Shown: positions 76 through 13,722 of the stretch, piece after piece
How positions within the stretch are numbered: the stretch's first letter is position 1
Layout of the letters: every line of letters begins with the position of its first letter
Assembly (NCBI RefSeq): GCF_036237275.1
Contig: NZ_CP108352.1
Location: 7,775,501-7,839,500, forward strand
Direction: 5' to 3'
DNA: 64,000 bases
From: Streptomyces sp. NBC_01353
GTDB lineage: Bacteria; Actinomycetota; Actinomycetes; Streptomycetales; Streptomycetaceae
The notes under the pieces: model-generated
The model's database searches: none
Seen by the model: the letters and a program-made list of their open reading frames with translations, nothing else
What the model was told of the DNA's origin: nothing
Made by a program: the position numbers and the translations under genes

Positions 76-671
76 GACCCACAGTCTGCAGAGGTGGATC
101 ACCGTCCGCGACCCTTTTACCGGCGCCGCAGACCAGTGCGCTCGCGCTCGGCTACGGTTCCGCAGCCGCTGCGGCCGGCTCGCGGCAGCTGCGTGGGGAG
201 TGCGGTCGCCACGCGAAGGATTCGGGTTGCATCAGAGCCCTCCTCAGGGGGCGGCGTGCGCCGGTGGGAATCAGCCACGGGAGGGGCGCGCGGGGCAGGT
301 AGTCCGGGTGCGGATGAATAAGATCCGAGCACGTACGGTCGCCTCCGCGCAAGGGTTCGCACCCCTCGTCTTCATCGCCCATTCAGAGGCCTCGATCGAG
401 GGTGTGAGGCGAGTGTGGAGAAAGTGCCAGGTCAGGCCTGTTTGGCGTGGAGGTGGCGCGCTGGTTGGCGTAGAAACCGGCCATCAAATCGGGTCGACCC
501 TCTTGCCAGAGTGAGATCGTACGTGCTCGGATTAATCCCGTCGGCGGCGCTCCGGAGTGCCGCATCCTGCGACGTCGGTTTCCCTCCGCATGGCTTGATC
601 CATGCCCTCACTCGTATGCCCGAACCGGCGACCAACTCGTCTCACCAACCTCCCATCCCTAGGAGCGAGAC
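76..671. other. Gene-free stretch upstream of the nicotinate operon
   Basis: About 600 bases without a convincing gene. Open frames here are short, arginine-rich and lack ribosome binding sites. The stretch should contain the promoters of the leftward nucleotidyltransferase gene and of the rightward nicX operon. Its one clear structure is a widely spaced 15-base inverted repeat, listed separately. Confidence 0.6.
323..532. repeat. 210-bp segment bounded by a perfect 15-bp inverted repeat
   Basis: ATCCGAGCACGTACG at 323-337 is repeated exactly in inverse orientation at 518-532, leaving 180 bases between the arms. Each arm also contains the small palindrome CGTACG. The enclosed DNA has no plausible gene. 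This layout fits a miniature inverted-repeat element or transposon remnant, or two binding sites for a regulator of the downstream operon. Flanking bases do not show a clean target-site duplication (AAG on the left, TAA on the right), so the mobile-element reading is unproven. Confidence 0.5.
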
Positions 672-1703
672 ATGTTTGACCTCACCTCTGTTGATCTGCT
701 CGACGCGTTCACCCGGGAGCTGGAGCTGTGCAAGCTCACGCCCGGCGAGCACGTCGTCGTCCTGTCCGAGCCGAGCAGTCGCGGTGACTACGTCGCCGCC
801 GCCTTCGGTGCGGCGAAGGCCTGTGGCGCGCACGTCATCGCCGCCACCGTTCCCGGCGGAAACCCCTCTCCCACCGACAGCACCCACACCGGCGCCGGCC
901 CCGGCCTGACCGCTGTGCTGAACGACCGCACCGCCCAGGAGCTGCTCAAAGCCGCAAACCTCGTCGTGGACCTCACGCGGGAAGGCTTCATCCACGCCCC
1001 TCTCCAGCAGGAGATCCTGCGCACCGGCACCCGCATTCTCTTCGTCTGCGACGCGCCGGACGTCCTCATCCGCAATCTGCCCAAGCCGGAGGACAAGGCC
1101 GAGGTCCTCAAGGGCGTCGAGCTGGTGAAGAGCGCCTCCACGATGCGGGTGACCTCCGAAGCCGGTACCGACCTGACCGTCGAACTGCCGGGCTCCAAGC
1201 CCGAGTTCCAGGTGGGCTTCGCCGACGACCCGGGCCGCTGGGACCACTGGCCGAGCACCATGGTGCTCTGCTGGCCGCAGTTCTCCGACGGCCGGATCGT
1301 GCTGGCCGAGGGCGACATCCTGCTGCCGTTCAAGGAGTACGTGCGTCAGCCGGTCACCCTGGAGATCGCCGGCGGGCGCATCGAGAAGGTCTCAGGCGGC
1401 GCCGAGGCCCATCTGCTGAACACGTTCTTCGACGACGCGAACGACGAATGGGCGCGCAGCCTGTCCCACATGGGCTGGGGCCTGATGCGCACCGCCGACT
1501 GGTTCGCCACCGCCCTGTACGGCAAGGAAGAGCTGATGGGCATGGACGCCCGGGCGTTCGCCGGCAACTTCCTCTGGTCCACCGGGCCGCACCCCGTCCT
1601 CGGCCGTGAGTCGTACGCACACCTCGACATCGCCATGCGGGACTGCACCGTGTCCGTCGACGACCAGGACGTCGTCAGCGCGGGCCGACTCGTCGACTTC
1701 TGA
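672..1703 (+). CDS. nicX: 2,5-dihydroxypyridine 5,6-dioxygenase NicX
   Basis: 343 residues, a typical length for the NicX branch of the M29-aminopeptidase-like fold. NicX opens the ring of 2,5-dihydroxypyridine with O2 to give N-formylmaleamate, using one Fe(II). In Pseudomonas putida NicX, His265, His318 and Asp320 are the essential iron-site residues. Here H266 (in SLSHMGWG), H317 and D319 (in YAHLDIAM) fall at almost the same numbers and spacing. A good ribosome binding site (AGGAGCGAG) precedes the ATG at 672. It is the first gene of the operon, followed 33 bases later by the monooxygenase that makes its substrate. Neighbours for every other step of the maleamate pathway make a true peptidase role unlikely. 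Confidence 0.9.
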   Translation: MFDLTSVDLLDAFTRELELCKLTPGEHVVVLSEPSSRGDYVAAAFGAAKACGAHVIAATVPGGNPSPTDSTHTGAGPGLTAVLNDRTAQELLKAANLVVDLTREGFIHAPLQQEILRTGTRILFVCDAPDVLIRNLPKPEDKAEVLKGVELVKSASTMRVTSEAGTDLTVELPGSKPEFQVGFADDPGRWDHWPSTMVLCWPQFSDGRIVLAEGDILLPFKEYVRQPVTLEIAGGRIEKVSGGAEAHLLNTFFDDANDEWARSLSHMGWGLMRTADWFATALYGKEELMGMDARAFAGNFLWSTGPHPVLGRESYAHLDIAMRDCTVSVDDQDVVSAGRLVDF

Positions 1704-1736
1704 TCACTGCCTGCCGCACCCGCATCTGGAGAACTC

Positions 1737-3008
1737 ATGGCATCCACCCAATCGTTCGAAGTCGTCATCGTCGGAGGCGGGCTCGGCGGGATGACGGCCG
1801 CGCTGGCCCTGCGCCAGCGAGGCCTCGGCGTCACCGTGCTCGAACAGGCACCGCAGTTCGGCGAGATCGGCGCCGGCATCCAGACGGCGCCCAACGCGAG
1901 CCGCATCCTGTTCGGGCTCGGACTGCGCAAGCAGCTGGAGGCCATCCACACCGAGCCCCAGGACCAGGTGCGGCGCAGGTGGAAGGACGGCAGCATCATC
2001 GGGCTGACCCAGCTCGGCGACGCCTGCAAGCAGCGCTACAACGCCCCGTACTGGCACTACCACCGCGCCGACCTGCACGGCGTCCTCACGGACGCCTGCA
2101 TCGACCCGGCCGGTCCCGGACCGGTCGTCGCACTGCACACCGGAAGCACGGTCACCGAGCTGGACCGCAGCAACCCCCGACGGCCTGCCGCCGTGACCGA
2201 GGACGGCCGACGCTTCGAAGCCGATGTGCTGATCGGCGCCGACGGCATCCGTTCCCGCGTCCGCGACCTCATGGGCCTCCCGGACACCCTGCAGTTCTCC
2301 GGCGAGATGGCCTTCCGTGCCCTGATCCCGGGCGACCTCATCGCCGCCGACCCGGCGACGCGATTCCTGATGGACCGCTTCCAGAGCACCATCTGGTACG
2401 GCCCCGAACGGCACCTGGTCCACTACGTGATCCGCGGCGGCGAGTACCTCAACGTCGTCGGCTGCGTCCCGTGCACCGACGACGTCGCCGAGAAGTGGAC
2501 CGCCCAGGCCGGCGCCGACGAGCTCGTGAACGCCTACCCCGGCTGGGACGACCGCGTCGCGGCGATGCTGTCCAAGGCCAAGGACGACGTCATGAGCTTC
2601 GCCCTCCACCACCGCCGACGCGACCCCGTCTGGGCGGACGGCCGCGTCGCCCTCCTGGGCGACGCCTGCCACGCCATGCTGCCCTACCAGGCGCAGGGCG
2701 CCTCCCAGGCCATGGAGGACGCCGCCGTCCTGGCGGAGGAACTGGGCCGAACCACCGTCGACGGCACCGAGCTCGCGCTGCGCCGCTACGTCGACCGGCG
2801 CGCCAAGCACGCCGGCATGGTCCAGGACGCCTCGCTGCAGAACAAGACCTTCTACCACTACCCGGACGGCCCTCGTCAGGAGGCCCGCGACGAGCTGCTC
2901 AAGCGCGGATTCGACGGAGAGTCCGACGTGTCCTACGACTGGTTGTGGAGCGGCACCCCGCTCAACGACCCGGATCTGGGCGCCTACGACTACCGCTTCG
3001 CCCGCTGA
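1737..3008 (+). CDS. nicC: FAD-dependent 6-hydroxynicotinate 3-monooxygenase NicC
   Basis: 423-residue class A flavoprotein hydroxylase. Visible motifs: FAD-binding GGGLGG at residues 13-18 with the ribose-binding Glu at 36, the GADG motif at 167-170, and the second FAD motif LLGDACH at about 307-312. NicC converts 6-hydroxynicotinate to 2,5-dihydroxypyridine by NADH- and O2-dependent decarboxylative hydroxylation. Sequence alone would also allow a salicylate-type hydroxylase; the position between nicX and the Mo-hydroxylase genes makes NicC the best call. The ATG at 1737 follows a GGAGAA ribosome binding site. It is slightly longer than the roughly 380-residue Pseudomonas enzyme. Confidence 0.85.
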   Translation: MASTQSFEVVIVGGGLGGMTAALALRQRGLGVTVLEQAPQFGEIGAGIQTAPNASRILFGLGLRKQLEAIHTEPQDQVRRRWKDGSIIGLTQLGDACKQRYNAPYWHYHRADLHGVLTDACIDPAGPGPVVALHTGSTVTELDRSNPRRPAAVTEDGRRFEADVLIGADGIRSRVRDLMGLPDTLQFSGEMAFRALIPGDLIAADPATRFLMDRFQSTIWYGPERHLVHYVIRGGEYLNVVGCVPCTDDVAEKWTAQAGADELVNAYPGWDDRVAAMLSKAKDDVMSFALHHRRRDPVWADGRVALLGDACHAMLPYQAQGASQAMEDAAVLAEELGRTTVDGTELALRRYVDRRAKHAGMVQDASLQNKTFYHYPDGPRQEARDELLKRGFDGESDVSYDWLWSGTPLNDPDLGAYDYRFAR

Positions 3009-3115
3009 CCCAGCCCGGGCCCCTCCCTCCCAGACCCCAGCCCCACCCCGCTCTTCCACCCCCGGTGTCCGCCCCGCGCGGGCGCGTCCCCCTCGAACAC
3101 CCCCGTGGAGCGAAC

Positions 3116-4525
3116 GTGAAAACAGGCGACCAGATTGTTCAGGACCTCCCATGGAGATGGGGCGTCCAGGGAAAGATCTTCATCATCGGCGGTCTCGGCT
3201 ACCTCTTCGACGCCTACGACATCGCGCTCAACGGCTTCCTGATGCCGCTGCTGGGTGAGCACTTCGATCTGACGCTCTCCCAGCGCGGCCTCGTGGCCAC
3301 CGCCAACCTCGTCGGTATGGCCCTGGGCGCCGTCGTCTGGGGCGCGGTCGCGGACCGTATCGGCCGCAAGAAGGCCTTCAGCGTCACCCTGCTGATCTTC
3401 GCGCTGTTCTCGGTGCTCGGCGCCTTCGCCCCGAACTACGCCGTCTTCCTGGCCCTGCGATTCGTCGCCGGCGTCGGACTCGGCGGCTGCATTCCCGTCG
3501 ACTACGCCCTGGTGGCGGAGTTCTCGCCGAGGAAGTACCGCGGGCGGGTCCTCACCGCGCTGGACGTGTGGTGGCCGATCGGCGTGACCCTGTGCGGTCT
3601 GGTGTCGACCATGATGCTGACACTCGACGACAACTGGCGATGGATGCTCGCCACCATGAGCCTCCCGGCGCTGCTGCTCTTCTGGGTGCGCCGGGGCATC
3701 CCGGAGTCGCCGGTCTACCTCAGCAAGAAGGGCAGGGAGGCCGAGGCCCGCGCCGTCATCGACGATCTGGTCGTCCGCACCGGAGCGCCGGTCGAGCCGT
3801 ACGTCATCCCCGCCCCGGTGGAGGAGACCAGGTCGAGGGGGCCTCGGGCCGCCTACGAACAGCTCCGCGACGTCTGGAAGTTCAGCCCGCGCATCACCTC
3901 CGCCGCCTGGCTGCTCTTCGCCAGCGTCATGCTCGTGTACTACGCGGCGCTGAGCTGGATGCCGTCCATCCTCAAGGAGCAGGGCCTCGGCGACACGGCC
4001 GCCTTCATGAGTACGACGCTGATGAGCGGCGTCGGCATCCTCGGTGTCCTGGTGTCCACCGCGCTGGTCGACGTGGTGGGCCGGAAATGGCTCATCGGAA
4101 TCACGGCCCCGCTCGCCGCGCTCGCCCTGGTGGCGTTCGCGCTGATGCTGGACATGCCGACGGGGTCCGTCGTCGCCATCGCCGTCTTCGGCCTCCTGAT
4201 GCAGCTGACCATCCCCGCCATGTACGCCTATGTGTCCGAGCTGTACCCGACGCTGCTGCGGGCCAGCGGCTTCGGCTGGGCGTCGTCCTTCAGCCGGGTG
4301 CTGACCGGCTTCGCCCCGCTGCTGTTCGGTTCGGTCATGTGGCCACTTCTGGGGCTGCCGCTCACCTTCGCCGTGCTCGCCCTGGCCGTCGTGGGGTCCG
4401 TCGTCTGGACGGCGGTCGCGGCCCCCGAGACCAAGGGGCGAGCGCTCGACGACGACGCCGAGGACCTCTTGGGACCCGAGCCGGTCGAGGCCCCCGTACC
4501 GGCATCCGGTCGGGCGGTGCTCTGA
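3116..4525 (+). CDS. MFS transporter, probable nicotinate importer
   Basis: 469-residue, twelve-helix major facilitator protein. After helix 2 it has the loop motif DRIGRKKAF, and helix 4 carries RFVAGVGLGGCIPVDYAL, a pattern like that of niacin and aromatic-acid:H+ symporters (NiaP/AAHS type). The reading frame is open far upstream, but similarity begins only at MKTGDQIV. The GTG at 3116 has GTGGAG just upstream, so I place the start there. Its place between nicC and the hydroxylase genes suggests it brings nicotinate or 6-hydroxynicotinate into the cell. Substrate is inferred from context; the transporter class is clear. Confidence 0.85.
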   Translation: MKTGDQIVQDLPWRWGVQGKIFIIGGLGYLFDAYDIALNGFLMPLLGEHFDLTLSQRGLVATANLVGMALGAVVWGAVADRIGRKKAFSVTLLIFALFSVLGAFAPNYAVFLALRFVAGVGLGGCIPVDYALVAEFSPRKYRGRVLTALDVWWPIGVTLCGLVSTMMLTLDDNWRWMLATMSLPALLLFWVRRGIPESPVYLSKKGREAEARAVIDDLVVRTGAPVEPYVIPAPVEETRSRGPRAAYEQLRDVWKFSPRITSAAWLLFASVMLVYYAALSWMPSILKEQGLGDTAAFMSTTLMSGVGILGVLVSTALVDVVGRKWLIGITAPLAALALVAFALMLDMPTGSVVAIAVFGLLMQLTIPAMYAYVSELYPTLLRASGFGWASSFSRVLTGFAPLLFGSVMWPLLGLPLTFAVLALAVVGSVVWTAVAAPETKGRALDDDAEDLLGPEPVEAPVPASGRAVL

Positions 4526-4583
4526 GGGTTCGCCCACCTGACCGGGCCCACCTCCCCGTCAGACTCCGTACGACAGGAGAACC

Positions 4584-5432
4584 ATGAAGCCCGCTCCCTT
4601 CCGCTACCACCGGGCGCGCGACGTCGAGGGCGCCACGGCGCTCCTCGCCGAGCTGGGCGACGAAGCCAAGGTCATCGCCGGCGGCCAGAGTCTGGTCGCG
4701 ATGATGAACTTCCGACTGGCGCGGCCGGCCCACCTGGTCGACATCGCCGGCCTGCGTGAGCTCGACCATCTGGGCGTCGACGCCGACGGTGGGCTGCACA
4801 TCGGGGCACTCACCACCCACCACACGGTGGAGATCGCCCCGCCGCACATGCTCGGGGCGGGCTTCGACGTCATCCGTGACGCCATGGCGTGGATCGGCCA
4901 TCTGCCGATCCGCACCCGTGGCACGGTCGGCGGCAGCATCGCACACGGCGACTCGACCGCCGAGTGGTGTCTGCTCGCCGTACTGCTGGACGCCGAGATC
5001 GTGGTCCGGAGTCCGCGCGGTCGGCGTCGAATCCCGGCCGGAGAGTTCTTCTTCGGCTACTACACGACCGCCCTGGACCCCGACGAGATCCTCGTCGAGA
5101 TTGTCTTCCCGCGGCCCGCACCCCACGCGGCGCTCACCGAGTTCGCCGAGCGTCGCGGTGACTTCGCCGTCGTGGCAGCGGCCGTGGACCTGGACGCCGA
5201 CGGATCCGCCGTCCGCGGCGGCCGGGTGGCCCTCGGCGGTGTCGCCGCGATGCCGGTACGGGTCCCCGAGGCGGAGGCGGTGCTGGCCGCCGGCGGCTCC
5301 TTCCGAGACTGCGCCGAAGCGGCGGCGGCCGCGGTGGACCCGCCGGGCGACGCGAACGGCAGCACCCAGTACCGCAAGCACGTCATCCGCACTCTGGTCG
5401 AACACGCCTGTGAGGAGGCGATGTCCCGATGA
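4584..5432 (+). CDS. Xanthine dehydrogenase family, FAD-binding (medium) subunit
   Basis: 282 residues, normal for CoxM/NdhF-like medium subunits. FAD-contact motifs are clear: AGGQS at 32-36 and TVGGS at 114-118. This subunit passes electrons from the two [2Fe-2S] clusters of the small subunit to the external acceptor. It is the first of three overlapping genes for a molybdenum hydroxylase, and its stop overlaps the next start as ATGA (5429-5432), implying coupled translation and stoichiometric assembly. A good ribosome binding site (AGGAGA) precedes the ATG. In this context the enzyme most likely hydroxylates nicotinate at C6. Confidence 0.88.
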   Translation: MKPAPFRYHRARDVEGATALLAELGDEAKVIAGGQSLVAMMNFRLARPAHLVDIAGLRELDHLGVDADGGLHIGALTTHHTVEIAPPHMLGAGFDVIRDAMAWIGHLPIRTRGTVGGSIAHGDSTAEWCLLAVLLDAEIVVRSPRGRRRIPAGEFFFGYYTTALDPDEILVEIVFPRPAPHAALTEFAERRGDFAVVAAAVDLDADGSAVRGGRVALGGVAAMPVRVPEAEAVLAAGGSFRDCAEAAAAAVDPPGDANGSTQYRKHVIRTLVEHACEEAMSR

Positions 5433-7822
5433 ATTCCACCAAGGACGACCGTCTGGTCGGCAGATCGGTGCCCCGCCGCGAGGATCCTCGGCTGCTGACC
5501 GGGCGAGGCCGTTTCGTCGACGACATCGAGCTGCCCGGCATGCTGCACGCGCAGTTTGTCCGCAGCACGGTCGCCCACGGCGTGATCACCGCCGTCGACC
5601 TGACCGACGTGTGCCGAGTGCCCGGCGTCGTCGCCGTGTTCACCGCCTCGGACCTGGAGATGGGCGACATCACGGCCCAACTGGGGCGTCCGCTTTCGGA
5701 GTTCGTACCCACCGCCATGCCGGTCCTCGCCCGCGACAGGGTCCGCTACGTCGGTGAGCCCATCGCCGTGGTCGTCGCCCGCGACCCGTACACGGCCGAA
5801 GACGGCCTGGAAGCGGCCAAGGTCACCTACGAAGCCCTCCCGCCCATCACCGGCGAGGAACAGGCTCTCGCTGCCGGTGCCGCCCTGGTCCACGACGAGG
5901 CCGCGCACAACACGCTCGTCGACGTCTCCCTGTTCGCCACCGAGGGCATCGACGACGTCTTCGACAACGCGCCCTGCGTGGTGCACGTGGAGACGAGGAC
6001 CGGCCGTCAGAACGCACTGCCGCTGGAGACCCGCGGTGCGGTGGCGCACTGGGACGACCGGGAGGAACAGCTCGTCCTGCACACGTGCACCCAGGTCCCG
6101 CACCAGGTGCGCACCGTCGCCTCGCGCTGCCTCCGGCTCGACGAGCGCGCGGTGCGGGTGATCGTCCCGGACATGGGCGGCGGCTTCGGGCTCAAGTGCG
6201 CGGTCGGCCGCGAGGAGATCGCCACCGCGGCGGCGGCACGGCGGCTCGGACGGCCCGTGAAGTGGATCGAGGACCGCAAGGACGCCCTGTCCGCCTCCTT
6301 CCTCGCCCGCGAACAGCACTACACCGCACGCGCCGCCTTCGACGCCGACGGCCGGATCCTCGGCCTCGACGCGGACGTGGTCTGCGACATGGGCGCCTAC
6401 TCCTGCTACCCGTTCACGGCAGGCATCGAGCCGCTGATGGCCTCCGCCGAGATGCCCGGCGTCTACAAGGTCCCCGCCTACCGTGTGCGCGGCCGGGCCA
6501 TCACCACCAACAAGGCGCCCACCGCCCCCTACCGGGGCGTGAGCCGTCCGCAGTACGTGATGGTCGCCGAGCGGCTCATGGAACGCGCCGCCCGCGAACT
6601 GGGCCTCGATCCACTGGAGATCCGACGCCGGAACGTCATCACCGAGTTCCCCTACACCGGCGTCAACGGCATCACCTACGACCCCGGCTCGTACCTGGAA
6701 TCCCTCAACCTGTGCGAGCAGGCCCTGAAGGAGGCCGGCTGGTACGAGCGGCAGGCCGCGGCGCGGGCCGAGGGACGCCATATCGGGATCGGCTACAGCT
6801 GCTTCAGCGAACGCACGGGGTACGGGTCCGCCGCCTTCGCCGCGCGCAAGATGGAGGTCGTCCCCGGATTCGACTTCTCCGAGGTCCGCATGGACACCAG
6901 CGGTGCCGTCACCGTCACCACCGGCACCATGAGCCACGGCCAGAGCCACGAAACGACCATGGCGCAGATCGTCGCCGACGCGCTCGGCGTCGACCTCGCG
7001 AAGGTCAAGCTCCACCAGGGCGACACCGACCGCATCACCTACGGCTGGGGCAGTTTCGCCAGCCGCTCGATCGTCGTCGGCGGCAGCGCTGTGGGGCTGG
7101 CGGCGGCCAAGCTCGGCGACAAGCTCCGCGCGATCGCCGCCGCCGAGTGGGGCATCTCTCCGGAAGGGACCGCACTGGACCAGGGCCGGGTCCGCCGTCT
7201 CGACGACCCGGACACGACACTCACGTACGCGCACCTGGCCGACACCGCGTACCTCAAGGCGCACCTGCTGCCCAAGGACATCGAGCCGGGCCTCACCGCC
7301 ACCGCCGTCTTCGACGTCTTCAACGACGGCACCTTCTCCAACGCCACCCATGGTGTCGTCGTCGAACTGCACCAGGGCACCGGCCAGGTGGAGATCCTCG
7401 CGTACGTCTGTGTCGAGGACTGCGGTGTGGCGATCAACCCGCAGGTCGTGGAGGGCCAGTGCCGGGGCGGCATCGCCCAGGGCATCGCGGGTGCCCTGTT
7501 CGAGCAGGTGACGTACGACGACCAGGGCGAGCCCTCGGCCACCAGCTTCATGGACTACAAGGTCCCCACCGCCCACGAGATCCCCGACGTCTCCATCCAC
7601 CACCTGGAGACCCCGTGCGCCTTCACCGAGACAGGCGCCAAGGGCGCCGGGGAGGGCGGCACCATCGGGGCTCCCGCCGCCGTACTCAACGCCGTCAACG
7701 ACGCGCTGCGCCCCACCGGTGTCGAACTGGACAACACGCCCATCACACCGGAGACCGTCCACCGCGCCCTGACCCCAGCGGCACCAGTACCGCCGGCACC
7801 AGCACTGGAGCAGACACCATGA
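5429..7822 (+). CDS. Xanthine dehydrogenase family, molybdopterin-binding large subunit (probable nicotinate hydroxylase)
   Basis: 797 residues, the usual size of a CoxL/NdhL-type catalytic subunit. It carries GGGF (250-253), a pterin-contact motif, and GAGEGG, whose E742 matches the catalytic Glu of the family. The active-site loop is YRGVSR (368-373). That is like form II (YRGAGR) and unlike the Cys-containing AYRCSFR of genuine CO dehydrogenase, so the enzyme should be a purine- or N-heterocycle-type hydroxylase. It overlaps both neighbours by four bases. Expected reaction: water-derived hydroxylation of nicotinate to 6-hydroxynicotinate. The substrate is inferred from nicC and nicX in the same operon. 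Confidence 0.9.
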   Translation: MNSTKDDRLVGRSVPRREDPRLLTGRGRFVDDIELPGMLHAQFVRSTVAHGVITAVDLTDVCRVPGVVAVFTASDLEMGDITAQLGRPLSEFVPTAMPVLARDRVRYVGEPIAVVVARDPYTAEDGLEAAKVTYEALPPITGEEQALAAGAALVHDEAAHNTLVDVSLFATEGIDDVFDNAPCVVHVETRTGRQNALPLETRGAVAHWDDREEQLVLHTCTQVPHQVRTVASRCLRLDERAVRVIVPDMGGGFGLKCAVGREEIATAAAARRLGRPVKWIEDRKDALSASFLAREQHYTARAAFDADGRILGLDADVVCDMGAYSCYPFTAGIEPLMASAEMPGVYKVPAYRVRGRAITTNKAPTAPYRGVSRPQYVMVAERLMERAARELGLDPLEIRRRNVITEFPYTGVNGITYDPGSYLESLNLCEQALKEAGWYERQAAARAEGRHIGIGYSCFSERTGYGSAAFAARKMEVVPGFDFSEVRMDTSGAVTVTTGTMSHGQSHETTMAQIVADALGVDLAKVKLHQGDTDRITYGWGSFASRSIVVGGSAVGLAAAKLGDKLRAIAAAEWGISPEGTALDQGRVRRLDDPDTTLTYAHLADTAYLKAHLLPKDIEPGLTATAVFDVFNDGTFSNATHGVVVELHQGTGQVEILAYVCVEDCGVAINPQVVEGQCRGGIAQGIAGALFEQVTYDDQGEPSATSFMDYKVPTAHEIPDVSIHHLETPCAFTETGAKGAGEGGTIGAPAAVLNAVNDALRPTGVELDNTPITPETVHRALTPAAPVPPAPALEQTP

Positions 7823-8388
7823 ACGACACCAGCGGCCTGGGCGACGACCTCCAGCTCCTCACCCTCGACGTCAACGGCACCTCGCACGAAGTGATCACCG
7901 CACCGCGCCGCACCCTGGTGGACGTGCTCCGCCACGACCTGCGACTGACGGGCACCCACGTCGGCTGCGAGCATGGCATCTGCGGTGCTTGCACCGTGCT
8001 GGTCGACGGGCTTCCTGTCCGGGCCTGCCTGATGTTCGCCGCCCAGGCGGAGGGGGCGCGGATCGCCACCGTCGAGTCTCTCGCCGACGCAGGAAGCAAA
8101 GCCGACTCCGGCTCCGACTCCCGCTCCGACTCCGGCGAACTCAACGATCTCCAGCGGGCCTTCACCGAGAACCACGGCCTGCAGTGCGGCTTCTGCACCC
8201 CCGGCTTCCTCATGCTCGCCGAAGGCTTCCTCGCGGAGCGGCCGGAGGCGACCAAGGAGGAGATCAGGGAGGTCGTCGCCGCCAACCTGTGCCGGTGCAC
8301 CGGCTATCAGACCATCGTGGAGGCGATCGACGCCTGCGCGACCGCCCGGCGCGCTCAGCGGGCCGCGTGCTCCGAGGAGACTCCGTGA
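7819..8388 (+). CDS. Xanthine dehydrogenase family, [2Fe-2S] small subunit
   Basis: 189 residues with both expected clusters. A plant-type [2Fe-2S] site uses C50, C55, C58 and C70; the all-helical second site uses C123, C126, C158 and C160 (CGFC and CRC). It relays electrons from the Mo centre to the FAD subunit. Between the domains is an unusual acidic Ser/Asp linker at about 90-107 (repeats of DSGSDS type), longer than in most homologues and encoded by imperfect repeats of GACTCCGGC. The start overlaps the large-subunit stop as ATGA, and the stop overlaps the next GTG. Confidence 0.92.
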   Translation: MNDTSGLGDDLQLLTLDVNGTSHEVITAPRRTLVDVLRHDLRLTGTHVGCEHGICGACTVLVDGLPVRACLMFAAQAEGARIATVESLADAGSKADSGSDSRSDSGELNDLQRAFTENHGLQCGFCTPGFLMLAEGFLAERPEATKEEIREVVAANLCRCTGYQTIVEAIDACATARRAQRAACSEETP

Positions 8389-9023
8389 AACTGATCAATA
8401 CCGTTCCGGTCAAAGCCGCGCCCGACGCGGTGTTCGCCCTGGTCAGCGACGTCCAGCGGGTGGCGTCCTGCATGCCGGGAGCCGCTCTCCAGGGCCGGGA
8501 CGGCGACGCCTGGCGCGGCGCCGTCAAGGTCAAGGTGGGCCCGATCACGGCCGCCTATGCCGGCACCGTGCGCTTCCTGGAGGTCGACGCCGAGAAGCGG
8601 CGACTGCGTGTCCACGCCAGCGGCGCCGATACCCACGGCAGCGGCGACGCCGAGGCCGAGGTCTCTCTGGAAGTGCTTCCGACCTCTGACGGCACGCAGC
8701 TGAACCTCACCACGGATCTGGTGATCCGGGGCAAGATCGCCCAGTTCGGCAAGGGTGCCATCGCCACGGTGTCCGACCGGATCCTGCAGCAGTTCGCCCA
8801 GAACCTCGGAGACTTGCTCCTCGCCCGGAGCGACGCGCAGGGCCCCACCGCGGCCCCGGCTTCGGCCGAGTCCACGTCCGCGGCCGCCGTGCCCGCCGCT
8901 GCGTCCGCCGAACTCAACGGGCTGTCGCTGATCGCCGGCCCGGTGCTGAAGAAGTACGGCCCGGTCGGTGCCGCCTTCCTGTTCGGGCTCTTTCAGGGCT
9001 GGCTCCTGGGCAGGCGCCGATGA
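8385..9023 (+). CDS. CoxG-like SRPBCC protein with C-terminal membrane segment
   Basis: 212 residues. Residues 1-145 match the CoxG/SRPBCC lipid-binding fold (INTVPVKAAPDAVFAL, CMPGA, GPITAAY). An Ala/Ser-rich linker follows, and the protein ends in a hydrophobic segment, VGAAFLFGLFQGWLLG, followed by RRR, consistent with a tail anchor. In aerobic CO dehydrogenase systems CoxG links the Mo enzyme to the membrane quinone pool. Here it sits directly after the small subunit, overlapping by four bases (GTGA), so it probably does the same for the nicotinate hydroxylase. GTG start; the upstream gene supplies the ribosome binding site GAGGAGA. Confidence 0.87.
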   Translation: MKLINTVPVKAAPDAVFALVSDVQRVASCMPGAALQGRDGDAWRGAVKVKVGPITAAYAGTVRFLEVDAEKRRLRVHASGADTHGSGDAEAEVSLEVLPTSDGTQLNLTTDLVIRGKIAQFGKGAIATVSDRILQQFAQNLGDLLLARSDAQGPTAAPASAESTSAAAVPAAASAELNGLSLIAGPVLKKYGPVGAAFLFGLFQGWLLGRRR

Positions 9024-9697
9024 GCGCCGGACTCTACGGTGCGAGCACCGATCGCACCTACAAGGCGGCCGGCTTCGGTTCCCCGGTCAGGCGTGGCAGT
9101 CGTCCGGCGATCGTCGTGGTGGACCTGACACGGGGCTTCACCGAGGACTCGTATCCCTCGGGTTCGGATCTGACCGAGGTCGTGTCCGCGACCACCAACC
9201 TGATCGAGGCGGGGCGTCCGGCCGACGCGCCGGTGGTTTTCACCGCCATCGCCTACACCGAGGCCGAGGCGTCCGGGGACTCGATCGCCTGGCTGCGCAA
9301 GGCGCCGGGCCTGCGGCAGCTGGTCGAGGGCAGCGACGCGGTGGCCGTCGACCCGCGGTTGCCGATGCGGCCCGAACACGACGTGCTGGTGGTGAAGAAG
9401 GGCGCCTCCGCGTTCTTCGGGACCAACCTCGCCGGCACCCTGACCGGACTCGGCTGCGACACCGTCGTGGTGTGCGGCGCCACCACCAGCGGCTGCGTAC
9501 GGGCCACCGCCGTGGACGCCGTCCAGTCGGGATTCTCGGTGCTCGTGCCCCGCGACTGCGTGGGCGATCGGGCGGAAGGGCCGGCGGACGCGGCGCTCTT
9601 CGACATCCAGGCCAAGTACGGCGACGTCATCAGCCTTGAGGATGCCATCCGTTACATCAGCTCTCCGCCCGCTCCTTTCGTGCGGGCTCGTTCATGA
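9020..9697 (+). CDS. nicF: Isochorismatase-fold maleamate amidohydrolase NicF
   Basis: 225-residue cysteine hydrolase of the isochorismatase superfamily, in the N-carbamoylsarcosine amidohydrolase branch. The catalytic triad is visible: D35 in VVVDLTRGF, K126 in VKKGASAFFGT, and C159 in GATTSGCVR. NicF hydrolyses maleamate to maleate and ammonia, step five of the maleamate pathway. The start overlaps the CoxG stop (ATGA at 9020), and nicD follows immediately. N-carbamoylsarcosine amidase would be the alternative from sequence alone, but the flanking nic genes favour maleamate. Confidence 0.87.
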   Translation: MSAGLYGASTDRTYKAAGFGSPVRRGSRPAIVVVDLTRGFTEDSYPSGSDLTEVVSATTNLIEAGRPADAPVVFTAIAYTEAEASGDSIAWLRKAPGLRQLVEGSDAVAVDPRLPMRPEHDVLVVKKGASAFFGTNLAGTLTGLGCDTVVVCGATTSGCVRATAVDAVQSGFSVLVPRDCVGDRAEGPADAALFDIQAKYGDVISLEDAIRYISSPPAPFVRARS

Positions 9698-9708
9698 GGA
9701 GAAGTCCC

Positions 9709-10617
9709 GTGTCCCAGCGATCGGTTCTGCAGGCCGCGCTCGCCGACCTGGCCGACGTGCACGCCACCAGCCGTTGGGTCCGCTCCGGCGGTATCCGGCT
9801 GCATGCGCTCGACTACGGCGGCGATCTGCCCCCACTGGTGATCCTGCCCGGCATCACCAGCCCCGCGATCACCATGGATTTCATCGCCCGCGAACTGACC
9901 GACCTTGTCAGGCCGGTGGTGCTGGACGTACGCGGCCGGGGACTGTCCGACGACGCCGAGGGCTTCGGACTGGAGGAGTACGCCGAGGACACCGAGGCGC
10001 TGATCAGCGGCCTGGGGCTCGACAGCCCCCTGCTGTTCGGCCACTCCATGGGCGCGCGGATCGCAGCCGTCGTCGCGGTGCGGGCCAAGGTGGCCGTGCG
10101 CGGCGCCGTCCTGGCCGATCCACCCATGAGCGGTCCGGGCCGAGGACCGTACCCCACCAGCCTGGAGGCCTTCCTACGACAGCTGTCCGAGGCCCGTCAC
10201 GGCACGGATGCCGACGAGGTGGCCGTCTCCTGGCCCACATGGCCGCGGCCGGAGCAGGAACTGAGGGCGCGCTGGCTGTCCAGCTGCGCCGAGGAGGCCA
10301 TCGTCGGCACCCACCGCGGCTTCGAGCACGAGGACTTCTTCGACTGGTGGCCCCGGGTCCCGACGCCCGTCGCCATGCTGTACGGGGCCGACAGCCCGGT
10401 CGTCACCGCCGCCGGTGTCGAGGAGGCCGCCCGCGCGAACCCGGCGGCTGCCCTGCACGGCATCCCCGGCGCCGGACACATGATCTTCTGGGACACCCCG
10501 GCGACCGCCCTCGCGGCCCTGCGAACGGCCCTGAGCACCGTCCTCTCCCAGCCCGGCACCGACCCCCAGCCCGGCACTCACCCCCAGCCCGGTACCGACC
10601 CCCAGCGGCGTGCGTAA
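9709..10617 (+). CDS. nicD: Alpha/beta-hydrolase N-formylmaleamate deformylase NicD
   Basis: 302 residues with nucleophile motif GHSMG (S113), acid D137 in LADPP and H257 in GAGHMIF. In P. putida NicD the triad is Ser101-Asp125-His245; all three sit here at a constant offset of 12, strong support for the call. NicD removes formate from N-formylmaleamate. An ATG at 9694 overlaps the nicF stop, but AGGAGA at 9697-9702 is well spaced from the GTG at 9709, which I prefer. The tail holds three copies of PGTDPQ or PGTHPQ (residues 282-299), encoded by an 18-base tandem repeat, an addition not needed for the fold. Confidence 0.9.
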   Translation: MSQRSVLQAALADLADVHATSRWVRSGGIRLHALDYGGDLPPLVILPGITSPAITMDFIARELTDLVRPVVLDVRGRGLSDDAEGFGLEEYAEDTEALISGLGLDSPLLFGHSMGARIAAVVAVRAKVAVRGAVLADPPMSGPGRGPYPTSLEAFLRQLSEARHGTDADEVAVSWPTWPRPEQELRARWLSSCAEEAIVGTHRGFEHEDFFDWWPRVPTPVAMLYGADSPVVTAAGVEEAARANPAAALHGIPGAGHMIFWDTPATALAALRTALSTVLSQPGTDPQPGTHPQPGTDPQRRA

Positions 10618-10625
10618 GCGTGGTC

Positions 10626-11105
10626 ATGTCTGATGCGGAAACAACTTCCGAGGCCGCAGCCCAGGCCCCTGCCGCCCTGACCGCCGCCCCCGGCTACCAG
10701 GTGCGCCGTCTCTACCAGGCATACCTCGCCGCGTGGCTGCGCGAGGTGGACCCCGTGCTCACCGGCCCGCAGTTCGCCGTCCTCCAGACCGTCCAGGCAT
10801 GTCCCGGACGCGATCAGCGCTCCCTCGCCGCCGCCGTGGCGCTGGACACCTCGACGATGGCGGACGTGGCCCGACGTCTGGAGACCCGGCGTCTGATCAC
10901 ACGCAGCACCGCGGCCGACGACGGCCGCCGCAAACTGCTCCATCTCACCGAGGAGGGCGAGCACCTTCTCCGTGAGGCCGACCAGCGCGCACGGGCGCTG
11001 GACCGGCGCCTGATGGAGCCGTTCGGCGACGCCGAACACCAAACCCTTCTGCACACGCTGACGTCCCTCGCCGACCACTGGGTGGGACTGACCTCGGGCT
11101 CGTAG
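10626..11105 (+). CDS. MarR-family regulator, NicR-like, copy 1
   Basis: 159 residues with a winged helix-turn-helix: helices around RDQRSLAAAVALDTSTMADVAR and wing TAADDGRRKLLHLT. In P. putida the pathway repressor NicR is also MarR-type and releases DNA when 6-hydroxynicotinate binds. This protein probably does the same; the effector is inferred. A second gene at 13243 encodes a protein of the same length and mostly identical sequence. The start is ATG 10626, with GTG 10620 possible in frame. It lies eight bases after nicD, inside the operon. Confidence 0.85.
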   Translation: MSDAETTSEAAAQAPAALTAAPGYQVRRLYQAYLAAWLREVDPVLTGPQFAVLQTVQACPGRDQRSLAAAVALDTSTMADVARRLETRRLITRSTAADDGRRKLLHLTEEGEHLLREADQRARALDRRLMEPFGDAEHQTLLHTLTSLADHWVGLTSGS

Positions 11106-11187
11106 CCCTCCCCGCCGCCGGACCGCCCTACTCGGCGCTCCGCACGGGGGAGTGACCGGCCCGAGCCGCAACCGGAGGACCAAACCC

Positions 11188-11955
11188 ATGACGGACCATC
11201 ACATCGGCATGATCGTGCCCAGCTCCAACCTCACCATGGAGACCGAACTGCCGCGGATGCTGAGCGCCCGCGAGGCCCTCGAACCCGACGACCGCTTCGT
11301 GTTCCACAGCAGCCGGATGCGCATGAAGCACGTCACCCCGGAGGAACTGCGCGGGATGAACGCGCAGACCCGGCGCGCCGCACTCGAACTGGCCGACGCC
11401 CGGCCCGACGTCGTCGCCACCGCCTGCCTGGTCGCCATCATGGCCCAAGGCCCGGGCCACCACTGCGTGGCAGAGAACGAGATCACCTCCGTGCTGCGCG
11501 CCGAAGGCGCCGAGGCTCCGGTGGTCTCCAGCGCCGGCGCCCTGCTCAGCGGCATCGGAGCCCTCGGCGCCCAGCGCGTCGCCATCATCACGCCGTACAT
11601 GAAGGGGCTCACCGCCCAGGTCGTCGAGTACATCGAGGACGCCGGCATCGAGGTGGTCGACGCCCTCAGCCTCGAAGTGCCCGACAACCTGGCGGTGGCC
11701 CGACTCGACCCGGCCGATCTGCGTGAGCACTGGCGGCGCCTCGACCTGAGCCGGGCCGACGCACTGGTGCTGTCGGCGTGCGTACAGATGCCGTCCCTCG
11801 CGTCGATCCAGCCGGTCGAGGACGAAGCGGGGCTGCCCGTGCTGTCGGCGGCCACGTCGACGGCGTTCCGCATCCTGACGGAGCTCGGCCTGCCTCCTGT
11901 CGTACCGGGCGCCGGCAGCCTGCTCGGCGGGAGGGTCACAGCAGCCCGGCCGTGA
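11188..11955 (+). CDS. nicE: Maleate cis-trans isomerase NicE
   Basis: 255 residues of the Asp/Glu racemase superfamily. The two catalytic cysteines are C80 (ATACLVAIM) and C198 (LSACVQMP), matching the Cys82/Cys200 pair of P. putida NicE in spacing. The enzyme turns maleate into fumarate, which enters the TCA cycle and ends the pathway. The reading frame extends to a GTG at 11152, but similarity starts at MTDHHIGMIVPSSNLTM and the ATG at 11188 has GGAGGA upstream. It follows the first MarR gene and precedes xdhC. Confidence 0.9.
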   Translation: MTDHHIGMIVPSSNLTMETELPRMLSAREALEPDDRFVFHSSRMRMKHVTPEELRGMNAQTRRAALELADARPDVVATACLVAIMAQGPGHHCVAENEITSVLRAEGAEAPVVSSAGALLSGIGALGAQRVAIITPYMKGLTAQVVEYIEDAGIEVVDALSLEVPDNLAVARLDPADLREHWRRLDLSRADALVLSACVQMPSLASIQPVEDEAGLPVLSAATSTAFRILTELGLPPVVPGAGSLLGGRVTAARP

Positions 11956-11998
11956 GCGGAGCGCACAGTCGAGTCGGCCGGCGCGAGAGGAGTGGCAC

Positions 11999-13144
11999 AT
12001 GCGTGACGTGATGGACCCGCTGATGTCCTGGTGGGCCGAGGGCAAGGCAGCGGCGTTGGCCACCGTGGTGGCCACCCACGCCTCGGCCCCGCGCCGGCCG
12101 GGAGCTTCGATGCTGGTGGGCCCCGGAGGCGAGGCGGTCGGCAGCGTCTCGGGCGGCTGTGTCGAAAGCGCCGTCTACGAGTTGGGCCAGGAGGCGCTCG
12201 TCGGTGCGCGGCCGGTGCTCCAGCGGTACGGCGTGTCCGACGGCGACGCCTTCGCGGTCGGGCTGACCTGCGGCGGCACCCTCGACGTGTTCGTCGAGCG
12301 GATCGACCCCGAGACGTTCCCGCAGTTGGGCGAGGTGGTCGAGACGGTACGGGCCGGACGGCCGGTCGCGGTGGCCACCGTGATCGCCGGGCCGCCGGAA
12401 CGCCTCGGCCGCCGCATGCTCGTCCGGCCGGACCGGGTGGCGGGCGGCACCGGCTCGGAGCGTCTGGACCGTCTCGTACGCCATGATGCCCGCGGCCTGC
12501 TGGACGCCGGCCGATCCACTGTGCTGCGCTACGGCGCGGACGGAGCGTGCCGCGCGGAAGACCTGGACGTGCCAGGCGCGGGGCTGCGGGTGTTCGTCGA
12601 GTCCTTCGCGCCACAGCCCCGGATGATCGTGTTCGGCGCCATCGACTTCGCGGCGGCCCTCGCGCGTACGGGATCGCTCCTCGGCCACCGGGTCACTGTG
12701 TGCGACGCGCGCCCGGTGTTCGCCACCGCGGCCCGGTTCCCCGGCGCGGACGAGGTCGTCGTGGAGTGGCCGCACCGGTATCTCCGCGCCGAGGCGGAGG
12801 CTGGGCGGATCGACTCGAGAACCGTCCTCTGCGTGTTGACCCATGACCCCAAGTTCGACGTCCCGCTGCTCGAGGTCGCGTTGCGCCTGCCCGACGTCGG
12901 ATACATCGGGGCGATGGGCTCCCGGCGCACCCACCAGGACAGGTGGAACCGGCTCACGGAGGCAGGGTTGACCGAGGCCGAACTGAAGCGACTGTGCAGC
13001 CCGATCGGCCTTGACCTGGGCGCCCGGACCCCGGAGGAGACCGCCGTGTCCATCGCGGCCGAGATCATCGCGCTGAAGGGGGGAGGCAGCGGTCTCCGGC
13101 TGGCCGACCGTCCGGGCACGATCCATCCCGATGCGGGGCTCTGA
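11999..13144 (+). CDS. xdhC: XdhC-family molybdenum cofactor maturation factor
   Basis: 381 residues. The N-terminal part has the XdhC/CoxI signature (ATHASAPRRPGASMLV, SGGCVE, CGG) and the C-terminal part has the Rossmann-like XdhC_C domain (RMIVFGAIDFAAALA, GYIGAMGSRRTH, IGLDLGARTPEE). XdhC proteins bind molybdenum cofactor, add the terminal sulfido ligand and insert it into xanthine-dehydrogenase-family enzymes. It is therefore the dedicated chaperone of the hydroxylase encoded 6 kb upstream and supports a sulfurated Mo centre. ATG with GAGAGGAG upstream, 43 bases after nicE. Confidence 0.9.
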   Translation: MRDVMDPLMSWWAEGKAAALATVVATHASAPRRPGASMLVGPGGEAVGSVSGGCVESAVYELGQEALVGARPVLQRYGVSDGDAFAVGLTCGGTLDVFVERIDPETFPQLGEVVETVRAGRPVAVATVIAGPPERLGRRMLVRPDRVAGGTGSERLDRLVRHDARGLLDAGRSTVLRYGADGACRAEDLDVPGAGLRVFVESFAPQPRMIVFGAIDFAAALARTGSLLGHRVTVCDARPVFATAARFPGADEVVVEWPHRYLRAEAEAGRIDSRTVLCVLTHDPKFDVPLLEVALRLPDVGYIGAMGSRRTHQDRWNRLTEAGLTEAELKRLCSPIGLDLGARTPEETAVSIAAEIIALKGGGSGLRLADRPGTIHPDAGL

Positions 13145-13242
13145 CCGCGCAGGTGGTCCCACGCATCGACCTCTGCGGCGACCACCGAGATGCCGTCACC
13201 CGCCCTCGCTCGGCGTCGGCCGTGCGTGCTTAAGTAGGCCCC

Positions 13243-13722
13243 ATGGCCGACCAGACCCCGCCCGCCGAGACCACCCCGGAGATTCCCGCTGCCCTGACAG
13301 CCGCGCCCGGCTATCAGGTCCGCCGCCTCTACCAGGCGTATCTCGCGGTGTGGGCACGCGAGGTGGACCCGGTACTGACGGGCCCCCAGTTCGCCGTGTT
13401 GCAGACCGTGGAAGCAAACCCTGGCCGGGACCAGCGCTCCATGGCTGCCGCTGTCTCCCTGGACACGTCCACCATGGCCGACGTGGCCCGCAGGCTGGAG
13501 AACCGCGGCCTGCTCGACCGCCGCACCGCGGCCTCCGACGGCCGCCGCAAGCTGCTCTACCTCACCGACGCGGGCCGTGAGACCCTCCGCGAGGCCAACG
13601 ACCGTACGCGGTCGCTCGACAAGATCCTTCTGGAGTCCTTCGGCGAGGCGGAGCGCGCACCGCTCGTCGCCACGCTCCAGGCGCTCGCCGACCACTGGGA
13701 GGGACTGGCGGAGGGCTCGTAG
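13243..13722 (+). CDS. MarR-family regulator, NicR-like, copy 2
   Basis: 159 residues, a paralogue of the product of 10626-11105. Both share AALTAAPGYQVRRLYQAYLA, then EVDPVLTGPQFAVLQTV, LDTSTMADVARRLE and DGRRKLL, with differences concentrated at the N-terminus and in the C-terminal dimerisation helices. Conservation through the recognition helix suggests both copies bind the same operators, possibly as heterodimers; divergence in the rest could give different ligands. It closes the gene set, about 100 bases after xdhC, so it may have its own promoter. A GC-rich hairpin follows at 13754. Confidence 0.85.
   Translation: MADQTPPAETTPEIPAALTAAPGYQVRRLYQAYLAVWAREVDPVLTGPQFAVLQTVEANPGRDQRSMAAAVSLDTSTMADVARRLENRGLLDRRTAASDGRRKLLYLTDAGRETLREANDRTRSLDKILLESFGEAERAPLVATLQALADHWEGLAEGS

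Follow-up and report, generated by a model that had tools for sequence, protein, structure and literature searches.

A probable nicotinate-to-fumarate operon with a three-subunit molybdenum hydroxylase in Streptomyces sp. NBC_01353

To our knowledge, the closest described counterpart of the locus reported here is the nic cluster of Pseudomonas putida KT2440. Quinoline 2-oxidoreductase (Qor; PDB 1t3q) is a three-subunit enzyme that hydroxylates its substrate adjacent to the ring nitrogen. From biochemical work, an excerpt of PMC10331938 describes a nicotinate dehydrogenase of three subunits in Bacillus sp. DSM 2923, and at least three bacterial classes are distinguished in the available portion of a 2017 paper (PMC5746545). 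In the portion available, the genes named in the 2014 genome note on Bacillus niacini are limited to nicF- and nicE-like ones and a putative molybdenum (Mo) oxidoreductase pair (PMC4256190). Here we analyze a 64,000-nucleotide stretch of Streptomyces sp. NBC_01353 (contig NZ_CP108352.1, positions 7,775,501 to 7,839,500; hereafter, the window) in which 13 genes, all on the + strand, span positions 672-13722. We conclude, with a probability of roughly 85%, that they form an inducible operon through which nicotinate is catabolized aerobically by the maleamate pathway. The chemistry of the pathway is known, the enzyme of the first step is not the textbook one, and the regulatory and modular detail is new. 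We found no account of this actinomycete cluster among the open-access PMC papers listed, subscription papers being outside the scope of that search.

Gene content and proposed pathway

The first-pass annotation had placed the genes for the route from nicotinate to fumarate, together with an importer, a Mo-cofactor protein and two regulators, in one + strand block, and the coordinates were confirmed when we checked the open reading frames. The order is nicX, nicC, MFS (major facilitator superfamily), hM, hL, hS, coxG-like, nicF, nicD, R1, nicE, xdhC, R2:

672..1703, + strand: nicX, 2,5-dihydroxypyridine 5,6-dioxygenase, 343 amino acids (aa); 7cn3, 247 bits; H266/H317/D319
1737..3008, + strand: nicC, flavin adenine dinucleotide (FAD) monooxygenase, presumed 6-hydroxynicotinate 3-monooxygenase, 423 aa; PDB matches (see below)
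3116..4525, + strand: MFS transporter, presumed nicotinate importer; PF07690/PF00083
4584..5432, + strand: hM, hydroxylase FAD subunit, 282 aa; PF00941 (FAD_binding_5), PF03450 (CO_deh_flav_C)
5429..7822, + strand: hL, hydroxylase Mo subunit, 797 aa; 1t3q_B, 581 bits; loop PYRGVSRP; Glu742
7819..8388, + strand: hS, hydroxylase [2Fe-2S] subunit, 189 aa; PF00111 (Fer2), PF01799 (Fer2_2)
8385..9023, + strand: CoxG-like SRPBCC protein, presumed hydroxylase assembly factor; PF06240
9020..9697, + strand: nicF, isochorismatase-family hydrolase, presumed maleamate amidohydrolase; 4l07, 214 bits; D35, C159
9694..10617, + strand: nicD, N-formylmaleamate deformylase; deformylase 4l0c, 144 bits; S118/D142/H262
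10626..11105, + strand: MarR regulator R1 (NicR-like); PF01047; 28% identical to a Pseudomonas MarR protein
11188..11955, + strand: nicE, maleate cis-trans isomerase, 255 aa; 4fq7, 258 bits; C80/C198
11999..13144, + strand: XdhC-type Mo-cofactor maturation protein; NF045664, 200 bits, under the cut-off of 350
13243..13722, + strand: MarR regulator R2, paralogue of R1 (111/159 identical)

Gaps between genes are at most about 110 bp, and 4-bp overlaps occur at five consecutive junctions (hM/hL, hL/hS, hS/coxG, coxG/nicF and nicF/nicD). Because these overlaps run from hM through nicD, they tie the hydroxylase to the later pathway enzymes. Each downstream step has a homologue and hL co-occurs with nicX, so that the earlier reading of a nicotinate-to-fumarate operon, a route judged from genomic context, is well supported. 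Gene content, protein families, conserved residues, overlaps, gene order and operator conservation are here read directly from sequence.

In the pathway that we propose, the MFS carrier would bring nicotinate into the cell, where hM-hL-hS would add a hydroxyl at C6, beside the ring nitrogen, with water as the oxygen source and electrons leaving through the iron-sulfur (FeS) and FAD centers. XdhC would supply the Mo cofactor and the CoxG-like protein would help the hydroxylase assemble. NicC would then swap the carboxylate para to the C6 hydroxyl for a second hydroxyl, NicX would open the resulting 2,5-dihydroxypyridine, NicD would take off formate and NicF ammonia, and NicE would turn maleate into fumarate. 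R1 and R2 would repress at a palindrome (513-538) until released by an intermediate of the pathway, which by analogy would be 6-hydroxynicotinate. We infer the substrate, the direction of transport, the electron acceptor, the repressor-operator pairing and the inducer. The locus supplies candidate genes for a nicotinate hydroxylase that has three subunits and no haem, with its relatives as a test set.

The cluster is some 0.7 Mb away from the end of its 8.47 Mb contig, in a genome of 8.57 Mb, and nicX is found (E<=1e-20) in only 25 of 392 sampled Streptomyces genomes, about 6%; both would suit a cluster that this strain keeps in a silent or decayed state. We find this hardly credible, as the reading frames are all intact, the expected residues are retained and the operator is conserved. 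The closest named nicX loci, in S. sparsogenes and S. colonosanans, are 93% identical.

The hydroxylase and the lower-pathway enzymes

Two earlier claims about the first enzyme held up: that it is not NicAB with its cytochrome domain, and that it has the loop YRGVSR, read there as form II-like. The loop is exact in hL, no CxxCH motif occurs in any of the 13 proteins, and a Pfam scan of hL found Ald_Xan_dh_C, MoCoBD_1 and MoCoBD_2 and no haem domain. By sequence, hL is best matched by quinoline 2-oxidoreductase (1t3q_B, over 774 residues with the Glu motif aligned), which is also the best Foldseek match (E 1.8e-66) to an AlphaFold model with a mean pLDDT (confidence score) of 72. With separate FAD, Mo and [2Fe-2S] subunits and a conserved Mo-site Glu, the hydroxylase belongs to the quinoline 2-oxidoreductase/carbon monoxide (CO) dehydrogenase branch. 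PYRGVSRP and the Glu motif GAKG(A/V)GEGGT are each present in 58/58 relatives examined; we take Glu742 to have a catalytic role.

The lower pathway has the composition of the aerobic maleamate (nic) route: a NicX-type dioxygenase with its H/H/D residues, and a deformylase, maleamate amidohydrolase and maleate isomerase by homology. H266/H317/D319 of NicX and C80/C198 of NicE stand in the translations exactly where the first-pass annotation had put them; like the YRGVSR loop, we assume these residues to be catalytic, the H/H/D set presumably being the ligands of NicX-type 2,5-dihydroxypyridine dioxygenases. For the NicD triad, the claimed spacing stands and the numbering does not: counted from the ATG at 9694 the residues are S118/D142/H262, and the claimed 113/137/257 would follow from a start codon five codons further downstream. 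The best solved matches to NicF are 4l07, described there merely as an isochorismatase-family hydrolase, and N-carbamoylsarcosine amidohydrolase, rather than nicotinamidases.

NicC is of the right superfamily and reaction class for a 6-hydroxynicotinate 3-monooxygenase, yet nearer to other hydroxylases. Its top PDB matches are 8r2t (an unnamed FAD protein, 258 bits), vanillate 1-hydroxylase (8x38, 255 bits) and 4-hydroxybenzoate decarboxylase (8gsm, 249 bits), followed by tropone 2-monooxygenase (213 bits) and then 6-hydroxynicotinate 3-monooxygenase (8uiq, 178 bits). The vanillate and 4-hydroxybenzoate enzymes presumably swap a carboxylate para to a hydroxyl, the reaction type required of NicC. 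H226/Y230 of NicC align with His211 and Tyr215, the residues that bind 6-hydroxynicotinate in the portion available of PMC9304392.

Several observations weigh against nicotinate as the substrate or against the operon as we read it. The His/Tyr pair is common to relatives of NicC that do not act on nicotinate, and thus leaves its substrate unfixed; in sequence, NicC is nearer to the decarboxylative 4-hydroxybenzoate/vanillate enzymes and tropone 2-monooxygenase than to the solved NicC. Similarly, hL is closest to quinoline 2-oxidoreductase and not to the solved nicotinate dehydrogenase (128 bits). Its active-site loops (366-370 and 728-741) are of low confidence in the AlphaFold model, so no pocket argument is possible, and we dropped the pocket analysis. 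Of the 59 longer loci that bear hL (see below), 6 have no MFS gene at the expected position, and the MarR-operator pairing rests on co-occurrence.

Alternatively, the main substrate of the hydroxylase might be a different pyridine acid (picolinate or some related heterocycle), with nicotinate as a side substrate. Substrates vary widely in this family, the nearest solved enzyme works on quinoline, and on an Azospirillum plasmid a 43% relative lies about 18 kb from nicX in a separate group with amidase and oxalurate-type genes. On the other hand, a decarboxylative FAD hydroxylase needs a hydroxyl para to the carboxylate, as in C6-hydroxylated nicotinate, and hL tracks nicX and nicC across genomes. 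The picolinate (pic) pathway is marked by 3,6-dihydroxypicolinate decarboxylase, an enzyme of the amidohydrolase family. No amidohydrolase family is listed among the 13 products (NCBIfam for nine proteins and Pfam for ten, with nicF, xdhC and R2 covered by NCBIfam only and nicC by the best 25 of 86 NCBIfam matches), which agrees with the earlier claim that such a decarboxylase is absent and also speaks against this alternative. We consider it unlikely.

Distribution, operator and alternative front ends

Among the 25 Streptomyces genomes with nicX, identity is at least 79% in 22 and 58% or less in the other three. At E<=1e-200, hL is found in 21 of the 392, all among those 22, and in 0/370 others. 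Of 78 named nicX loci, we then counted the 67 in which nicX is followed on its right by 6.8 kb or more, dropping the other eleven: nicC adjoins nicX in 63/67, hL is present at >60% identity in 59/67, and because nicX, nicC and hL stand together in 59/67 their co-location is beyond chance. The cluster is an ordinary one in actinomycetes. The first-pass annotation had suggested looking for the same gene order in other actinomycetes, and it is conserved across several genera: Streptomyces, Yinghuangia and Sphaerisporangium share it, and Rhodococcus, Nocardia, Gordonia and Janibacter share its X-C-MFS-hydroxylase-coxG part.

In the fetched stretches of the Rhodococcus, Nocardia and Gordonia loci with nicX-nicC-MFS-hM-hL-hS-coxG (L113-L120, L122, L125, L134), we found no nicF, nicD or nicE; the lower pathway is perhaps replaced there. 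Upstream lie genes for a carbon-nitrogen hydrolase, a flavin-reductase-domain protein and a LacI-like regulator (labeled by eye). Across the phylum, nicX was matched in 7/396 genomes besides its own (eight matches of 34-39%). A linear 5.7 Mb record of Embleya sp. NBC_00888 (NZ_CP108785.1, L191), filed as a plasmid and carrying no annotated genes, has nicX (82%) and hL (81%) 2.4 kb apart, and Streptomyces sp. NBC_01016 (L087) has the MFS-hydroxylase block placed behind nicE.

Two candidate operators precede nicX in the window:

513..538, + strand: palindromic operator, core GTACGTGCTCGGATTA at 519-534; right arm imperfect in the window
321..336, - strand: second operator core, reverse-facing, GTACGTGCTCGGATCT; present in close relatives as well

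The consensus upstream of nicX in relatives is GAGATA-GTACGTGTTCGGAT-TATCTC. With at most one mismatch, the core GTACGTGYTCGGAT is found in 54/56 nicX upstreams from Streptomyces, Yinghuangia and Sphaerisporangium, a group defined after the operator matches were seen, and in 0/22 others; with two mismatches the count is 55/56, the exception being L136, whose nicX is only 58% identical. The backward pattern occurs in 0/56 upstreams, and the core in 0/200 shuffled upstreams (1/200 with two mismatches). Across eight whole genomes, the 16-base form with at most one mismatch gave 12 sites, 11 of them upstream of nicX, and the backward control gave one. The operator is therefore conserved and nearly confined to the nicX promoter. 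An extra exact core match in the genome of NBC_01353 (C1:1300724-1300739; L157 8001-8016) has a transporter-like gene, identified by eye, some 300 bp downstream of it. As the backward control also gave one match in this genome, we treated it as chance and did not extend the regulon beyond nicX.

R1 and R2 would bind the palindrome at 513-538 and form with it a regulator-operator pair, probably one that controls how Streptomyces breaks down vitamin B3. In a regulator tree they group with both copies from G228 (support 93/99, under the tool's star); the tree omits loci with the end copy only (L040-L042) and does not date the duplication. Behind the reverse-facing operator we recognized no divergent gene in the window, and this site is a candidate looping site or relic.

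Some relatives carry a Rieske oxygenase module in place of the hydroxylase:

L080 2979-9512 and L083 99-5532 (also L058), divergent from nicX-C-F-D-R: Rieske modules that replace the Mo hydroxylase; a candidate route for a 6-oxo-nicotinamide derivative methylated at N or O

The 22nd Streptomyces genome with a close nicX (G130; gene content as in S. hirsutus, L083) is missing hL and is the only one of the 392 with this Rieske oxygenase at E<=1e-60, its module facing away from nicX-C-F-D-R with two operators between. S. hirsutus has nothing closer to hL than a 40% paralogue. The same module also occurs in Streptomyces sp. B-S-A6 (L080), there together with nicE, and that genome gives no match to hL at E<=1e-100. 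Elsewhere, the module was found in 0/394 class-level genomes at E<=1e-80. It encodes a VanA-type oxygenase (scores of 140 bits against 7qwt, 129 bits against dicamba O-demethylase and 56 bits against the N-demethylase NdmA), a ferredoxin, an isochorismatase-family amidase, a ferredoxin reductase and a permease-like protein; an MFS protein is present in L080 and only as a fragment in L083. The permease-like gene of L080 has no Pfam family and scores 36.5 bits to an NCBIfam cytosine permease (cut-off 326), so that the label is tentative. The second operator in our window raised the idea of a module relic left of nicX, and we rejected it: 12.7 kb held no trace at E<=10 beyond two short L156 matches at E about 5, and the window gave only NicF, by family (3e-7), and one match at E 1.1.

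The extra amidase and the weakly cytosine-permease-like gene would also suit a different physiological input, a nicotinate derivative such as nicotinamide that is converted elsewhere, with the operon serving salvage overflow and not growth on nicotinate. However, NicF is the one amidase in the operon of NBC_01353 and its best solved matches are not nicotinamidases, making this very unlikely.

A further front end is found in G092 (L065 4661-15912), where a NicC of 72% identity stands beside a fused FeS-Mo hydroxylase, nearest to aldehyde oxidoreductase (393 bits), and a FAD subunit. This is a second nicX-like locus, with a divergent nicX (only 36-38%) and an 82% nicE. Both alternative front ends stand beside a NicC that is 70-72% identical, which fits 6-hydroxynicotinate as the common node. 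Among the nicC-bearing longer loci, 4/63 have no hL beside nicX (L080, L129, L130, L142). Not all of these fit a simple swap: L142 and L129 have hL elsewhere in the genome (79% and 66%), and L130 (Mycolicibacterium vaccae) has only 40-41% paralogues and no front end that we recognized. A fixed core with interchangeable entries that meet at 6-hydroxynicotinate is the simplest reading.

Because S. hirsutus and Streptomyces sp. B-S-A6 have no 6-hydroxylase orthologue, the Rieske substrate may already carry oxygen at C6. Quite speculatively, the design may be a plug-in one, with a core of NicC-X-F-D-E, MarR and operator, and with N-methyl-2-pyridone-5-carboxamide (2PY), a mammalian waste product of nicotinamide adenine dinucleotide (NAD), as a candidate Rieske substrate; it would be cleaved to the acid and then N-demethylated to 6-hydroxynicotinate. 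O-demethylation competes with this idea, since the Rieske enzyme scores higher against dicamba O-demethylase than against NdmA, as does direct C6 oxygenation of nicotinate or trigonelline. Front-end swapping suggests a way in which routes for further pyridine compounds, NAD waste products possibly among them, come together around 6-hydroxynicotinate.

Relatives of the Rieske oxygenase occur on 121 plasmid records, of which we examined four. Three are Roseobacter regions (L193, L194, L196) where the relative (50-53%) lies near an annotated 6-hydroxynicotinate reductase and FAD/Mo hydroxylase genes, a context that links the family to 6-hydroxynicotinate-like metabolism; in Mesorhizobium (L195) the 42% relative is not near such a reductase. 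Since a Mo hydroxylase is also encoded in the Roseobacter regions, the Rieske enzyme is not necessarily its replacement. These regions, which also hold MarR and ABC transporter genes, possibly encode a marine N-methylpyridine-acid pathway.

More distant nicX loci have other neighbors. In L063 (5886-16863) and L064, a nicX of about 40% identity occurs with nicE- and nicF-like genes; L063, where we read two-subunit Rieske dioxygenase, SDR and NuoF-like genes, is perhaps another route into 2,5-dihydroxypyridine. L135 and L136 have nicX at 57-59%, near genes in L135 for a P450, a flavin-reductase-domain protein, an AllG-like protein and a purine/cytosine permease, with look-alikes in L136.

Comparison with described systems

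As the Pseudomonas reference we used the nic cluster on plasmid pBYT5-1 of Pseudomonas sp. BYT-5 (L192). The two clusters share NicX (43% identity), NicC (33%), NicD (37%), NicF (43%) and NicE (54%), where in L192 the dioxygenase alone is annotated by function and the other nic names are our assignments. Likeness is weaker for the MarR regulator (28%), the MFS carrier (22%) and XdhC (31%), and the gene order is unlike. The first enzymes differ: that of L192 consists of a small 2Fe-2S protein and a 1195-aa Mo protein with three CxxCH motifs, whereas the Streptomyces enzyme has separate FAD, Mo and FeS subunits and no haem motif. The large L192 protein aligns with hL only in pieces, at 24-33% identity.

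Compared with Qor, hL has the loop YRGVSR in place of YRGVGF and a nicotinate-like genomic context. The enzyme of Bacillus niacini (Bacillus sp. DSM 2923) has three subunits of 20, 34 and 85 kDa, an FeS, a flavo- and a Mo protein (excerpt of PMC10331938), against 189, 282 and 797 aa here, a likeness drawn from published descriptions. In that organism the ring is opened at 2,3,6-trihydroxypyridine, as described in the available portion of PMC9304392. The nicotinate dehydrogenase of Eubacterium barkeri (3hrd) belongs to the Mo hydroxylase superfamily and catalyzes the same reaction that we propose here. Its Mo subunit is made of two chains, which match hL weakly (128 and 101 bits), whereas hL is a single 797-aa polypeptide. 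The E. barkeri pathway is anaerobic (PMC9304392, same portion), whereas we read the Streptomyces pathway as aerobic.

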